From Alphaproteobacteria bacterium LSUCC0684 (GTDB lineage Bacteria > Pseudomonadota > Alphaproteobacteria > Puniceispirillales > UBA1172): a stretch of 64,000 bases of DNA. Positions within the stretch are counted from its first letter, which is position 1. The number at the start of each line of letters is the position of its first letter. The DNA is taken from the NCBI GenBank assembly GCA_041228335.1, contig CP166130.1, positions 830,638 through 894,637 on the forward strand, given 5' to 3'. The notes below the pieces were generated by a model, which was not told the origin of the DNA, ran no database searches, and was given only the letters and a program-made list of their open reading frames with translations. Position numbers and translations under genes: made by a program. Below are positions 39,568 to 46,784 of this stretch, piece by piece.

Positions 39568-40788
39568 ATGTTTGAGCGTAACATACCTGAACTTGTACGC
39601 CACGCTCCGGCACCCAGCGTACACGGGTTTGCAACCCTGACAGGTGTGGAGGCTGTTGCCAGGGGCAGTCTTGTCTCGGTATTTCCGCTTGAAATGTATA
39701 AGGCCCTCAAAGAAGCGCAGGTCGTCAGCGAGGCCTATTTTCTGATTGGTCTTGCCTCGCTTATGGTTGGTCTTCTGGTGCCGACGATCAGCCGCAAGTT
39801 ATCGCGCCGGTGGACCTACAGTCTCGGGGGCGTGATGATGTTCTGCGGGCCTGGTCTTGCCGCATCCGGCCATCCTTACGGGGTTATTGCCGGGCTGATG
39901 CTGACCACCTTTGCCACGGTGGTTCTTTTTGTCTGCCTTAATGCCTATGTGCTGGATTATGTCAGGCGACATGATTTTGGCAGATGTGAAACCTTGCGTA
40001 TGCTGTATTCGGCCGTTGGCTGGACATTGGGGCCGGTGGCGGGCGTCATGCTCTGGGAATGGTGGCGACCTATGCCGTTTCTTGTCTCCATGGCCGCCGC
40101 GGTAATGTTGCTGATAATTTTCTGGATCATGCGACTTGGCAACGGGAAGTTGATCGTCAGGGCCAGCGCCCCCGCCATCAACCCGCTTGCCTATCTGGGC
40201 CGTTTTTTCCGCCAGAAACGTCTTGTCGCCGGGTGGATTTTCGCCGTCACCCGATCTTGTGGCTGGTGGGTATATGTTGTCTATCTGCCGATTTATGCGC
40301 TTGAAAACGGGCTGGGTTCATCTGTTGGCGGGGTATTGCTGTCGCTGACCAATAGCGCGCTTTTCATAACACCGTTGATGCTGTTCCTGCTTCGCCGCGT
40401 CGGGGTGAAGACGGCGATACGGTCCGGATTTCTGGTGGCCGGTATTTTGTTCAGCCTGGCGGGCGCCATGGGGGATTGGCCGCTGGTGACGATCAGCCTG
40501 CTTTTCGCGGGCTCGTTTGCCATGATTTTCCTTGATATCTGTGGCGGGTTGCCGTTTCTGATGGCGGTCAAGCCATCTGACCGCAATGAGATGTCGGCTG
40601 TATATTCCAGTTTTCGAGATGTCTCCGCGATTGTCACCCCCGGGGCATCGGCGGTGGTATTGTTGCTAGCGCCCCTGTCGACGGTGTTTGTTTTTGGCGG
40701 CAGCCTGCTGCTGATGTCCTGGATGATCGCCGGAAAGCTCAACCCCCGCCTCGGCACCGAAAGGTCCCGCCCGGCGCTGACCGCTTGA
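39568..40788 (+). CDS. MFS transporter
   Basis: A 406-residue integral membrane protein with about 12 hydrophobic segments and MFS-like loops (TISRKLSRRWTYSLGG after helix 2; LLRRVGVKTAIRSG in the second half). The N-terminus is long and polar for about 20 residues. The cargo is not recognisable. It stands alone: 240 nt of non-coding sequence precede it and 174 nt separate it from the AT-rich Shedu gene. Confidence 0.8.
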   Translation: MFERNIPELVRHAPAPSVHGFATLTGVEAVARGSLVSVFPLEMYKALKEAQVVSEAYFLIGLASLMVGLLVPTISRKLSRRWTYSLGGVMMFCGPGLAASGHPYGVIAGLMLTTFATVVLFVCLNAYVLDYVRRHDFGRCETLRMLYSAVGWTLGPVAGVMLWEWWRPMPFLVSMAAAVMLLIIFWIMRLGNGKLIVRASAPAINPLAYLGRFFRQKRLVAGWIFAVTRSCGWWVYVVYLPIYALENGLGSSVGGVLLSLTNSALFITPLMLFLLRRVGVKTAIRSGFLVAGILFSLAGAMGDWPLVTISLLFAGSFAMIFLDICGGLPFLMAVKPSDRNEMSAVYSSFRDVSAIVTPGASAVVLLLAPLSTVFVFGGSLLLMSWMIAGKLNPRLGTERSRPALTA

Positions 40789-40962
40789 GCGGGTGGACCG
40801 TACTCTTCAACCTCAGTTGAATTGATACCAAATTATCATGGCTCAGCCTTGCAATCTATTGTGGTAATACTTATATATCATTTGCAGCAATGATTTAACT
40901 CACTTTTTCGGCCAATATGTTCTCGCCAGTTGTTGCTGCTTCTACAAGAAAGGAATGCAAGC

Positions 40963-42252
40963 ATGTCAAACAACACATTACAAAAAAGAAAACCAAACCA
41001 ATATCATCAAACTGAAAAAGTCATTTTGAGATGTTCAGGCGTGCAGAGTGGGAAAAGGCATTGTTATTTTGAGTCCAAGCAAGACGGGCGCCTCTTTCAC
41101 ACTCATGAGATACAAAAAAATAGAATTATTTTTTTAATCTGTAAGCCATTGGGGGAATTAAAGAAAATTGTGTTTGAAGGTGATTTTGACCCCCAAAATT
41201 TAAAAACAGTAAAAGGTGTTGGGGATGCGACGGACAATCTCTTTGACCCTTTTGGTGGAGGGTTCGATAATAAAGCTTTAAGATACTTTATTAAAAATCA
41301 AATACCCTACATGAAAACTATTATGATCTCTGAGAAACCTACAAAGTTCAAGGGGAGTGGTGAAATAAATGTCAATAAGGAAGACTTAAATAAGTTAATT
41401 CAGGACTTGAACATTCAAAAGAAAGCTAACAGCTCAGAAATAAAGGCAATTATGCATAACTTCTGGTCTTCTAAAGTGCCTAAACTTGGCCTTTCAAGCG
41501 AAGCGCTAAACTCTAACAAGTCTCTAATCCTGCGAAATTTAAATGATAAGCTGTTAAAACAACTAACGGGTGATGAAATTGACAAATTTGGAGAGTTCTA
41601 TTTTGAAGCATTAGAAAAGCATAAGAGTGCCAGAATAAGAAAAAAGCGAATTCGTCTGCTTGCTGAGCAAGCAAAAATTCTGTCTCTTAATGAATTGATT
41701 TCAAGATATGAAAAGTTACTAAGGGAAGACCCTTTAGAAAATGAGTGGCAGAAATTTTTTGATGATTTTGTGACATTATTCGACAGCCGTTATCAAAATA
41801 ACATTGATCTTAAAAACATCTCACTTGGCTCAACAAAATACCCAGACCTAATCCTTTTAGATGTATATGGCTTCATAGATTTGTATGAATTGAAGAGATG
41901 CAAAACTAGCCTTCTTAGGTATGACAAAAGCCATAAAAATTACTATTGGTCAGATGAGATGGCTGCAACAATAGCGCAGGCCAGCTTTTACCTGCATGAG
42001 CTAAAAAATAATGCCCCTAATTTCTCGCAGAAAATAGAGGAAGAAAAGGGGATGCAGGTAAAGGTAATTAACCCCAAGGCATTTATCGTTGCAGGTACTT
42101 CAAATCAACTTGATTGCATAAAGAAACAAAAACAATTCAAAGTTTTAAGAGAGAGCTTAAAGGATGTTAACTTTATTCTCTATGATGAATTACTAGTTCA
42201 TCTGCAAAATCTCCTATCAAAACTTAAAGAGACAACGAAAGTAAATTCATAA
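40963..42252 (+). CDS. sduA: Shedu-type (DUF4263) nuclease, candidate anti-phage defence protein
   Basis: A 429-residue protein whose last third fits the Shedu/DUF4263 PD-(D/E)xK fold. ENEWQKFFDDFVTLF starts the domain. PDLILLDVYGFIDLYELK supplies Asp295, Glu309 and Lys311, followed by WSDEMAATIAQASFYLHEL with the conserved Gln339. The N-terminal about 150 residues form a separate beta-rich region, variable in this family and thought to sense or gate. A coiled-coil-like lysine-rich linker follows. ATG 40963 has AAAGGA upstream. Base composition is strikingly AT-rich compared with both neighbours, a sign of horizontal acquisition. Shedu is a known single-gene defence family; activity here is untested. 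Confidence 0.8.
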   Translation: MSNNTLQKRKPNQYHQTEKVILRCSGVQSGKRHCYFESKQDGRLFHTHEIQKNRIIFLICKPLGELKKIVFEGDFDPQNLKTVKGVGDATDNLFDPFGGGFDNKALRYFIKNQIPYMKTIMISEKPTKFKGSGEINVNKEDLNKLIQDLNIQKKANSSEIKAIMHNFWSSKVPKLGLSSEALNSNKSLILRNLNDKLLKQLTGDEIDKFGEFYFEALEKHKSARIRKKRIRLLAEQAKILSLNELISRYEKLLREDPLENEWQKFFDDFVTLFDSRYQNNIDLKNISLGSTKYPDLILLDVYGFIDLYELKRCKTSLLRYDKSHKNYYWSDEMAATIAQASFYLHELKNNAPNFSQKIEEEKGMQVKVINPKAFIVAGTSNQLDCIKKQKQFKVLRESLKDVNFILYDELLVHLQNLLSKLKETTKVNS

Positions 42253-42740
42253 GAATTACTGGTAATGCGGTGGCGATTTTTAAGAAAAAATATCTCTATG
42301 AACCTTAAAATGGCTGTTTTTGTTATGCCATCCTCTTCAGGATATACAATACGGCCAGTCTATCAGGGACAGATTAACAACCGATTAACGGCGCGAAATA
42401 TAAAGGCATCCCCCCACAGGTTTCAGGATATTGGCTTGCTGACGGATAACGGTGTTGACGGCTGGCAAGGTAATGAGGCCGCGGCATGTTCCCGAAACAA
42501 GGGGCTGGGCCTTTCTATTCATTAAAAATCATTGACGCAAAAGGCGTTACATGGAAAGGTTTTAAAAAGACTGAGGCGGAAAAATGGTTGGAAACCATAG
42601 GGAAAGTAAGGAAAAGGATGGTTTAACTGTTACCTGCTCCGGTCCAGATGGTGTCTTTCGGCTCGGTGATGCGGCGCAGGATGCCGGCAGCATCAGAGGC
42701 ACGCTCTTCCGCCTCAATGAGACGCCCGAACGGATGAGCA
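42253..42740. other. debris region between the Shedu gene and the TRAP genes
   Basis: Nearly 490 nt without a convincing full gene. An 86-codon frame at 42265-42525 and a 46-codon frame at 42486-42626 (Lys-rich, ending KVRKRMV) have no recognised family. Composition changes from AT-rich to the host type at about 42630. It probably marks the right edge of the inserted segment. Confidence 0.5.
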
Positions 42741-42757
42741 ATGTTTGAATATTGCAT
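42623..42757 (-). pseudogene. possible 3' remnant of a host-type gene on the minus strand
   Basis: A 44-codon minus-strand frame reads HPFGRLIEAEERASDAAG, then ILRRITEPKDTIWTG, and ends in TAA. It has the host's codon use and a protein-like composition, but it is short and overlaps the start of the DctQ gene. I do not recognise the parent protein. It may be the tail of a gene cut when the neighbouring segment was inserted, or chance. Confidence 0.3.
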
Positions 42758-43337
42758 GCATTATGTTCGCGTCGTGGACCGGATGAACCGCTTTATTGGC
42801 CGTATGGCGATGTATCTGATCTTCGTTCTTGTCGGTGTTCTGTTGTGGTCGTCCCTCTCCAAGACCTTTTTCACTCCGTCATTATGGACCTTGGAAACGG
42901 CGCAGTTCGTGATGGTGGCCTATTATATTCTCGGCGGGCCGTATTCTATTCAGCTTGGCTCGAATGTGCGGATGGATCTTTTCTATGGGGAATGGTCATT
43001 GAAGACAAAGGCCAGGGTTGATACTGTCACGGTGCTGTTTCTTCTCTTTTATCTTGGTGTTCTTCTTTATGGGGCCATCGGGTCGATGGCCTATTCGCTT
43101 GGCTATTTCGGCACCGAGCCCTTTGCCTTTTTTGCCGACCTTTTTGTGACCTTTGTCACCGAGGGGGCTGACGCGGCCAGCGGCAAGTTTGGCTATCTGG
43201 AGCGCAGTTCAACGGCCTGGCGGCCGCATCTTTGGCCGATCAAGCTGCTGCTGTGTCTTGGCGTTTTCCTGATGTTTTTGCAGGCGCTGGCCGAATTGTT
43301 TCGTGACATAGGCCGGCTTCGCGGGGTGCTTGACTGA
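42741..43337 (+). CDS. TRAP transporter small permease, DctQ-type
   Basis: A 198-residue membrane protein with about four hydrophobic segments, including YLIFVLVGVLLWSSLSKTFFTPSLWTLETAQF and AYYILGGPYSIQLGSNVRMDLFYG, the DctQ hallmark. It is coupled to the large permease by a shared base (TGATG). The ribosome site before ATG 42741 is poor, and later ATGs (42756, 42783) are possible. Confidence 0.88.
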   Translation: MFEYCMHYVRVVDRMNRFIGRMAMYLIFVLVGVLLWSSLSKTFFTPSLWTLETAQFVMVAYYILGGPYSIQLGSNVRMDLFYGEWSLKTKARVDTVTVLFLLFYLGVLLYGAIGSMAYSLGYFGTEPFAFFADLFVTFVTEGADAASGKFGYLERSSTAWRPHLWPIKLLLCLGVFLMFLQALAELFRDIGRLRGVLD

Positions 43338-44659
43338 TGTCACATGAAATGATCGCCATCACCATGTTTGCCGCCATGATGCTGATGCTGATGACCGGTC
43401 AGCGCGTCTTTGGCGCCATCGGTTTTGTCGGTGCTTTGGCGGGTCTCCTGTTATGGGGGACGGGCGGTGTGGACGTTCCCTTTTCAGCCGCGATGAAACT
43501 GATGAAATGGTATCCGTTGCTGACGCTGCCGATGTTCATTTTCATGGGATATGTGCTGTCCGAAAGCAGGATTGCCGATGATCTCTATAAAATGTTTCAT
43601 GTCTGGATGGGGCCGGTGCGCGGCGGTCTTGCCATTGGCACGATCGGATTGATGGTGCTGATATCGGCGATGAACGGGTTATCGGTTGCCGGTATGGCGA
43701 TTGGGGCAACGATTGCCCTGCCTGAGCTGCTGCGCCGCAATTACGACAAACTGATGGTAACCGGGGTTATTCAGGCCGGGTCAAGTCTTGGTATTCTGGT
43801 GCCGCCCTCGGTTGTTCTGGTTCTCTATGCGATGATCGCGCGCCAGCCGGTGGGGCAGTTGTGGCTTGCCGGCGTGGTGCCAGGGCTCATGATGGCCGGC
43901 ATGTTCATCGTCTATATCTATATTCGCTGCCGCCTTCAACCTGAACTGGGGCCGGCCCTGCCGGAAGACGAACGCCAGGTGCCCATGGCTGAAAAGCTGC
44001 GGCTGCTTCGTGCAGGCATTCTGCCCATCGGCATTTTTGCCGCGATGATGGTGCCGTTCGTAAGTGGCTGGACATCGCTGGTCGAAAGTTCCGCCATCGG
44101 AGCAATGACGGCCTTTCTTGCGGCCATCCTGAAAGGCCGCATGTCGCGTGCCGTGTTTGAAACATCGGTGCGGCAGACTCTGGCGATTTCCTGCATGTTC
44201 ATGTGGATCATTCTTGCGGCGCTGGGTTTCGGGGCAATCTTCGATGGTCTCGGGGCCGTGCGTGCGATTGAAAATCTGTTCACCGAGCAGCTTGGCCTGT
44301 CGCCCTGGATGATCCTGATCCTGATGCAGCTCAGCTTTATCCTGATGGGCACATTTCTGGACGATACCGCAATGCTGGTGATTGTCGCCCCGCTCTATGT
44401 GCCCCTCGTCGGGTTGCTAGGCTTTGACCTTATCTGGTATGGTGTTCTTTATACGATCACAACGCAGATTGCATATATGACACCACCATTTGGGTATAAT
44501 CTTTTTCTGATGCGTGCAATGGCACCACCTGAAATCAGTCTGCGTGATATTTACCGGTCGATCATTCCGTTTGTGCTGGTCATGATATTGGCATTGGTCC
44601 TCGTAATGGTGTTTCCGGAGATTGCCTTGTGGTTGCCGGAACTGGTTTACAAGGGATAA
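43337..44659 (+). CDS. TRAP transporter large permease, DctM-type
   Basis: A 440-residue protein with about 12 hydrophobic segments. TLPMFIFMGYVLSESRIADDLYKMFHVWMGPVRGGLAIGTI and GSSLGILVPPSVVLVLYAMIARQPVGQLWLAG are DctM signatures, and DDTAMLVIVAPLYVPLV sits in the second half. It uses a sodium or proton gradient to import what the DctP receptor delivers. Confidence 0.93.
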   Translation: MSHEMIAITMFAAMMLMLMTGQRVFGAIGFVGALAGLLLWGTGGVDVPFSAAMKLMKWYPLLTLPMFIFMGYVLSESRIADDLYKMFHVWMGPVRGGLAIGTIGLMVLISAMNGLSVAGMAIGATIALPELLRRNYDKLMVTGVIQAGSSLGILVPPSVVLVLYAMIARQPVGQLWLAGVVPGLMMAGMFIVYIYIRCRLQPELGPALPEDERQVPMAEKLRLLRAGILPIGIFAAMMVPFVSGWTSLVESSAIGAMTAFLAAILKGRMSRAVFETSVRQTLAISCMFMWIILAALGFGAIFDGLGAVRAIENLFTEQLGLSPWMILILMQLSFILMGTFLDDTAMLVIVAPLYVPLVGLLGFDLIWYGVLYTITTQIAYMTPPFGYNLFLMRAMAPPEISLRDIYRSIIPFVLVMILALVLVMVFPEIALWLPELVYKG

Positions 44660-44726
44660 AACAACAAGAGCCTTATCAAGAGGCCGCGATGACAACATAA
44701 CAACAAAACAAGGGAAGGAACCTCAC

Positions 44727-45761
44727 ATGACAAATAGACGTTCGTTTATCAAAGGAGCTGCTGTCGGTGCCGTGGCGGTGCCGCTTGCCGCTCCGGCAAT
44801 AGCACAGTCCACTATCAAATGGCGCATGCAGACCTATGCCGGTGCGGCACTGGCCGAGCATGTCGTCAAGCCCGCGATCGACATGTTCAACAAGATTGCC
44901 GGCGATCGCATGCAGATTGAACTGTATTTCGCCGATCAGCTTGTGCCGACGGGTGAGCTCTTCCGTGCCATGCAGCGCGGAACCATCGATGCGGTCCAGT
45001 CGGATGATGATTCGATGGCATCCCCGACGGAAGTGACGGTTTTTGGCGGCTACTTTCCATTCGCCAGCCGGTATTCCCTCGACGTGCCGGTGCTGTTCAA
45101 CCAGTATGGCCTGAATGAGATCTGGGACGCCGAATATTCGAAAGTCGGCGTCAAGCATATCAGCGCCGGGTCCTGGGATCCGTGCCATTTCGCAACCAAG
45201 GACCCGATCAACAGCCTTGCCGATCTGAAGGGCAAGAGAGTCTTTACCTTCCCCACGGCGGGCCGCTTCCTCAGCCAGTTTGGCGTCGTGCCGGTGACAC
45301 TGCCATGGGAAGATATCGAGGTTGCCGTTCAGACAGGCGAGCTTGACGGCATTGCCTGGTCCGGCATCACCGAGGATTACACCGTTGGCTGGGCGGATGT
45401 GACCAATTACTTCCTGACCAACAATATCTCCGGGGCGTGGATCGGCCATTTCTTCGCCAATATGGGGCGTTGGGAAGAGCTTCCCGAAGATCTTCAGATG
45501 TTGCTGAAAGTCTGCATGGAACAGTCGCATTATTATCGTCAATGGTGGTATTGGGGTGGTGAAGCTGCCCTTCGTGTGAATGGGCCGAAAATGAAGCTGA
45601 CATCTATTCCGGATGCTGAATGGGCACAGGTTGAGGCAGCGGCGCGCAAGTTCTGGGATGAAATTGCCTCCGAGTCCGAAACCAAGGCCAAGGTTGTAGA
45701 GATCTTCAAGAACTACAACGCCGATATGGAAAAGGCAGGTCGGCCTTATCGCTACAGTTAA
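44727..45761 (+). CDS. TRAP transporter solute receptor, DctP family, Tat signal
   Basis: A 344-residue periplasmic receptor. The N-terminus MTNRRSFIKGAAVG carries the twin-arginine motif RRSFIK and a hydrophobic region ending AAPAIAQ, so export should be through Tat. The mature part (IKWRMQTYAGAALAEHVVKPAIDMFNKI) is DctP-like. Tat-exported DctP receptors often bind 2-oxo acids or related carboxylates; the ligand here is unknown. ATG 44727 has AAGGAA upstream; earlier in-frame codons belong to the DctM end. Confidence 0.9.
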   Translation: MTNRRSFIKGAAVGAVAVPLAAPAIAQSTIKWRMQTYAGAALAEHVVKPAIDMFNKIAGDRMQIELYFADQLVPTGELFRAMQRGTIDAVQSDDDSMASPTEVTVFGGYFPFASRYSLDVPVLFNQYGLNEIWDAEYSKVGVKHISAGSWDPCHFATKDPINSLADLKGKRVFTFPTAGRFLSQFGVVPVTLPWEDIEVAVQTGELDGIAWSGITEDYTVGWADVTNYFLTNNISGAWIGHFFANMGRWEELPEDLQMLLKVCMEQSHYYRQWWYWGGEAALRVNGPKMKLTSIPDAEWAQVEAAARKFWDEIASESETKAKVVEIFKNYNADMEKAGRPYRYS

Positions 45762-45840: not shown

Positions 45841-46133
45841 ATCTGCGGCAGCGATGACAATCTAAAAACAACAGCAAGACACGCTGGGGCTTGTTGCCAA
45901 TACACCGGCGGGTGAATGCCTGATTTTCCTTCTTCTGATTTCCATAAAGACGTCATTCCTGTCATTGTTGTCATGGGGGCGAAAAGAATGGTTTATGCTA
46001 TAATTTTAAAATATTTTGCTAATTTATTTCTTATTTTGAAAAATTATTTTCCCATGCTCCAGTTAACAGTATTTACTGAAAAATAATTCCTTTATTGGTT
46101 TAGATGACTGCTGTTTTACACAAGGATAAAACC
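45841..46133. other. AT-rich intergenic region before the peroxiredoxin gene
   Basis: About 290 nt with no supportable gene. The second half is very AT-rich (runs of A/T near 46000-46090), which may hold the peroxiredoxin promoter. No clear operator or RNA structure was seen. Confidence 0.6.
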
Positions 46134-46784
46134 ATGAGCATCCGGATAAATGACACCATACCAAATATTCACGTGAACACAGATGCGGGGAGTTTCGACT
46201 TGCACGAATGGGTTGGCGACCAATGGGCAATACTGTTTTCTCACCCCAAAGATTTTACACCCGTCTGCACAACTGAATTCAGTGCTGTTGCAAAACTTGA
46301 AGATGAATGGAAAGCGCGAAATACAAAAGTAATTGGCGTTTCGGTAGACAGTGTTGAAGACCACAAAAAATGGAAGAGGGATATAGAAACATACGGCAAG
46401 CATAAACCTACCTTCCCAATAATTTCCGACATTGATTTGGTCGTATCTAAGGCGTTTGACATGCTTCCAGGCGAAGCATATTTGCCAGATGGGCGCACGC
46501 CAAATGACACCGCAACCGTTCGGTCAGTGTTCATCATCGGACCAGACAAGAAACTCAAACTTTCCATGACATACCCGATGACTGTAGGAAGAAATTTTGC
46601 TGAGGTTATCAGGGCACTTGATGCTCTTCAGCTTTCATCCCAAAAAGGGGTCGCAACACCTGCAGATTGGCAGGCTGGTCAGGACGTAATTATCCCTGCT
46701 ACTCTAAATGACGAAGAAGCTGAAAAGAAATTCGGTCTCTTCAAAAAAGACTTGCCGTATCTGCGAAAAGTCAAGGTAAACTAA
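46134..46784 (+). CDS. 1-Cys peroxiredoxin (Prx6 family)
   Basis: A 216-residue peroxiredoxin. SHPKDFTPVCTTE places the peroxidatic Cys45, and the long C-terminal part (SMTYPMTVGRNFAEVIRALDALQLS) is typical of the Prx6/1-Cys subfamily. It reduces hydrogen peroxide and organic peroxides. The ATG at 46134 has AAGGA 6-10 nt upstream; ten earlier codons are in frame. Base composition is lower in GC than the metabolic operons. Confidence 0.93.
   Translation: MSIRINDTIPNIHVNTDAGSFDLHEWVGDQWAILFSHPKDFTPVCTTEFSAVAKLEDEWKARNTKVIGVSVDSVEDHKKWKRDIETYGKHKPTFPIISDIDLVVSKAFDMLPGEAYLPDGRTPNDTATVRSVFIIGPDKKLKLSMTYPMTVGRNFAEVIRALDALQLSSQKGVATPADWQAGQDVIIPATLNDEEAEKKFGLFKKDLPYLRKVKVN

Follow-up and report, generated by a model that had tools for sequence, protein, structure and literature searches.

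The AT-rich gene at positions 40963 to 42252 of the window (the whole 64,000-nucleotide stretch of DNA that was analysed) raises the question of whether an isolated gene among metabolic neighbours encodes a working defence nuclease, and what could control it. The gene is very probably a single-protein Shedu anti-phage system gained horizontally, for which we infer DNA cleavage, oligomerisation, N-terminal sensing and the anti-phage function itself. Its 429-amino-acid reading frame runs uninterrupted from the ATG at 40963 to the stop codon ending at 42252. A TTG at 40930 is a possible alternative start, although an AAGGA sequence is found close 5′ to the ATG at 40963. The gene is present in one copy in the 2,704,644-base single-contig genome of this 2.7 Mb alphaproteobacterium. 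The features discussed below are as follows.

40963..42252, forward strand: Shedu (SduA, DUF4263) nuclease gene, intact frame, PF14082 at 5.9e-24 and PADLOC SduA at 1e-23
40963..41376, forward strand: N-terminal segment, candidate sensor domain, residues 1-138, no described family, pLDDT below 50, weakly alignable to the Gordonibacillus protein L029 only
41377..41673, forward strand: helical middle region, residues 139-237, leading to the nuclease core, low-to-moderate-confidence helices, residues 128-220 also found in L029 (blastp 5e-6)
41674..42231, forward strand: nuclease core of the PD-(D/E)xK type, residues 238-423, with the invariant residues Q263, D295, E309, K311 and Q339, predicted fold like those of 8ti9 (Z 17.6) and 8ps4 (Z 17.3)
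42253..42740, no strand: intermediate-GC spacer separating the Shedu gene from the TRAP transporter operon, with an unmatched small ORF at 42265-42525, present once in the genome

The family identity of the protein was examined with sequence profiles. Pfam SduA_C (PF14082, DUF4263) matches residues 259-411 with 85.5 bits, the curated cut-off of this family being 27 bits. Fifteen SduA models of PADLOC match the protein as well. A phmmer search of the PDB retrieved the B. cereus Shedu at 5.6e-4. A two-sequence profile made of the window protein and its Gordonibacillus relative retrieved E. coli SduA (8ps4) with an E value of 4.3e-14 and B. cereus SduA (8ti9, 8ti8) with one of about 1e-9; the E-x-K motifs fall in register. 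In the 8ti9/8tia sequence, the Glu position of this motif is occupied by Ala. Thus the Shedu-type identity proposed in the sequence-only reading is supported by the profiles, the DUF4263 match being highly significant, and by the fold comparison described below. The protein belongs to the known Shedu family as an ordinary new member with a divergent N-terminus.

In order to compare the catalytic region, 16 Shedu sequences were aligned, the relatives being drawn from genome contigs. Residues L253, E259, W262, Q263, D295, E309, K311 and Q339 are among those invariant in this alignment; the catalytic set named from the sequence (Asp295, Glu309, Lys311, Gln339) is found at exactly the positions given. 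Two residues after the lysine of the ExK motif, C313 occupies the site of a nearly invariant core proline. A single-sequence structure prediction was discarded (pLDDT 39). AlphaFold2 supplied with the 16-sequence alignment gave pLDDT values mostly near 90 from about residue 240 on. With this model, Foldseek matches below 0.001 were to Shedu chains only. The predicted C-terminal half (about residues 238-423) superimposes on 8ti9 with a Z of 17.6 and an rmsd of 2.7 over 179 residues. The comparison with 8ps4 gives a Z of 17.3 and an rmsd of 3.5 over 199 residues, and that with 8ps5 a Z of 17.2, as compared to 9 or less for unrelated PD-(D/E)xK nucleases (VIA). Structure prediction had been proposed as a check of the N-terminus; it returned a confident core, whereas residues 1-137 were not folded confidently (pLDDT below 50).

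The window protein was compared with the closest known Shedu systems. E. coli SduA (8ps4, 8ps5) matches this core over about 200 residues with the same D, ExK and Q arrangement, whereas identity in the core is 21% and the N-terminal approximately 180 residues are not alignable by sequence. B. cereus SduA (8ti8, 8ti9, 8tia) likewise has the same catalytic motif, but with 19% identity and an N-terminus for which kinship is not demonstrable. Similarity extends further in protein L029 of Gordonibacillus kamchatkensis, at about 35% identity, residues 128-220 (blastp 5e-6) and, in the pairwise alignment, a GGGF segment being common to both proteins. However, this relative comes from a Firmicute host with other neighbouring genes, its N-terminal approximately 100 residues are barely alignable, and its contig ends just 3′ of the Shedu gene. 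VcSduA of Vibrio cholerae is a type I-D Shedu with a GHKL ATPase at its N-terminus, and phage defence by VcSduA requires its nuclease lysine (PMC12137116). The window protein shares with VcSduA a DUF4263 nuclease placed after an N-terminal region, regulatory in VcSduA, but lacks a match to an ATPase. Indeed, no HATPase match was detected with Pfam over the whole protein, nor for the N-terminus at E values up to 10.

The N-terminal part was next considered. Residues 1-225 have no match in Pfam, NCBIfam or PHROGs, which agrees with the initial view that the N-terminus resembles nothing known. Helices are predicted with low to moderate confidence at residues 139-151, 157-171, 179-198, 203-217 and 223-255. 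A full-length profile alignment hinted that the N-terminus is akin to those of long Shedu proteins from proteobacteria (for instance from Pantoea, Cupriavidus and Agrobacterium plasmids). When the N-termini alone were compared profile to profile, the score was 13.8 (E 0.31). The scores of 30 column-shuffled controls spanned this value, and the candidate kinship was set aside as unproven. By analogy with other Shedu proteins, the N-terminal part may be a sensor domain. This domain is divergent and may be remotely related to known Shedu N-termini. A bolder proposal, which we hold to be rather unlikely, is that residues 1-137 form a sensor hitherto undescribed in Shedu, common so far only to one Gordonibacillus protein, and that this sensor recognises an infection signal different from any described for the known Shedu types. 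In the Shedu family, a single nuclease is known to be combined with a variety of N-terminal controllers, and this unassigned N-terminus offers a further, modest example with which to ask what they detect.

Because the protein is a member of the Shedu family, a mechanism may be proposed for it. Its N-terminal part would hold the nuclease idle until some property of the infection or of the invading DNA is recognised. Following assembly into an oligomer, the C-terminal PD-(D/E)xK domain (D295, E309, K311, with Q263 and Q339) would cut DNA using a bound metal ion. Control of the nuclease core by a variable N-terminal region, as in Shedu, is most likely. Most probably, then, the protein is a working Shedu nuclease in which a PD-(D/E)xK core placed under an N-terminal sensor would cut invading DNA, activity and sensing both being deduced.

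The origin of the gene was addressed through its composition and surroundings. Its GC content is 34.5% (34.9% at third codon positions) as compared to 53.7% for the window, and it is the GC minimum among 1290-base stretches of the window (mean 53.8%, sd 4.2%). Measured against all other genes of the window pooled, its codon use lies at a distance of 0.52, the second highest value among 39 genes, exceeded only by that of a peroxiredoxin gene. These values bear out the remark that both base composition and codon use stand apart from the surroundings. The low-GC tract spans about 40800 to 42350. Genes for an FAA hydrolase, an MFS transporter, a DctQMP TRAP transporter, a peroxiredoxin and a LigB-type dioxygenase are found in the neighbourhood. 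Defence models match none of the eight flanking ORFs that were tested; the gene thus stands alone among metabolic genes, as had been noticed from the sequence. Taken together, the base composition, the sporadic distribution (one genome of 136, see below) and the absence of defence neighbours among these ORFs point to horizontal gain as the most likely origin of the gene. The donor would have been AT-rich, and the gene would have inserted between the MFS transporter gene and the TRAP transporter operon.

The small accessory insertion put forward in the sequence-only reading is likely, but its borders are not defined by a repeat or a tRNA. No tRNA was found at the locus, flanking repeats were short and chance-like, none being convincing, and the genome contains no second copy of the Shedu segment. 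The flanking gene order is kept in no relative examined, which prevented reconstruction of the empty site. In the related genome G016 (L065), the TRAP genes share no common flank with the window and are ordered dctP-dctQ-dctM, as compared to dctQ-dctM-dctP at 42741-45761 of the window. The MFS transporter gene lies just upstream of the Shedu gene (39568-40788). A search of 40 related genomes at 1e-60 found no match to it, and this flank may itself be accessory.

The distribution of the family was then surveyed. SduA_C is found in one of the 136 genomes of the order searched, showing that the Shedu family reaches this order, and exceeds the cut-off in 17 of the 398 genomes of the phylum. A first scan of genome contigs with single-protein patterns returned no relatives; scanning with a three-sequence alignment gave 18 loci. 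Among these relatives, only the Gordonibacillus kamchatkensis protein (L029, Firmicute) has a match that extends well past the core (residues 98-417, 33%). A search of 246 genomes of the Gordonibacillus order added five genomes with relatives at core level only. On plasmids, Shedu-family genes occur in varied contexts. One lies within a BREX type 1 locus of a Methylomonas koyamae plasmid, with pglX and pglZ on either side (L059, 1374-2600). Two others, from Sphingomonas (L027, 2149-5783 onward) and Cupriavidus (L058, 1170-4564), are near integrases and directly precede a gene for an ATP-dependent endonuclease or an AAA ATPase, followed in Sphingomonas by a UvrD-type helicase gene.

This distribution bears on whether the protein, though Shedu by descent, could defend chiefly against plasmids or mobile elements, or serve a mobile element, rather than act against phages. 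Nuclease relatives are indeed common on plasmids: the Gordonibacillus relative used as query retrieved 30 plasmid records, and the window protein itself core-level matches only, on three plasmids. Phage records and viral contigs contained no relative of the Shedu protein. However, the location of several plasmid relatives beside integrases or within defence loci (BREX) is also usual for defence genes, and the gene in the window is on the chromosome and adjoins no mobile gene. We consider such a role improbable.

A decaying or unexpressed passenger, that is, an acquired nuclease no longer active, is still harder to reconcile with a full-length frame free of stops, the retention of every catalytic residue and a good ribosome-binding sequence ahead of the ATG. 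The cysteine at position 313 in place of the nearly invariant proline is in its favour, as is the lack of promoter-like sites above chance near the gene. Overall, we judge this explanation very improbable and retain that of a Shedu nuclease acting against phages.

Two minor features of the region were also observed. Directly 3′ of the Shedu gene, the 86-amino-acid ORF at 42265-42525 has no Pfam or PADLOC family match and is probably not a real gene. The peroxiredoxin gene (46104-46784, 44% GC) departs furthest of all genes of the window in its codon use (Karlin-type distance 0.551), possibly reflecting high expression or transfer.
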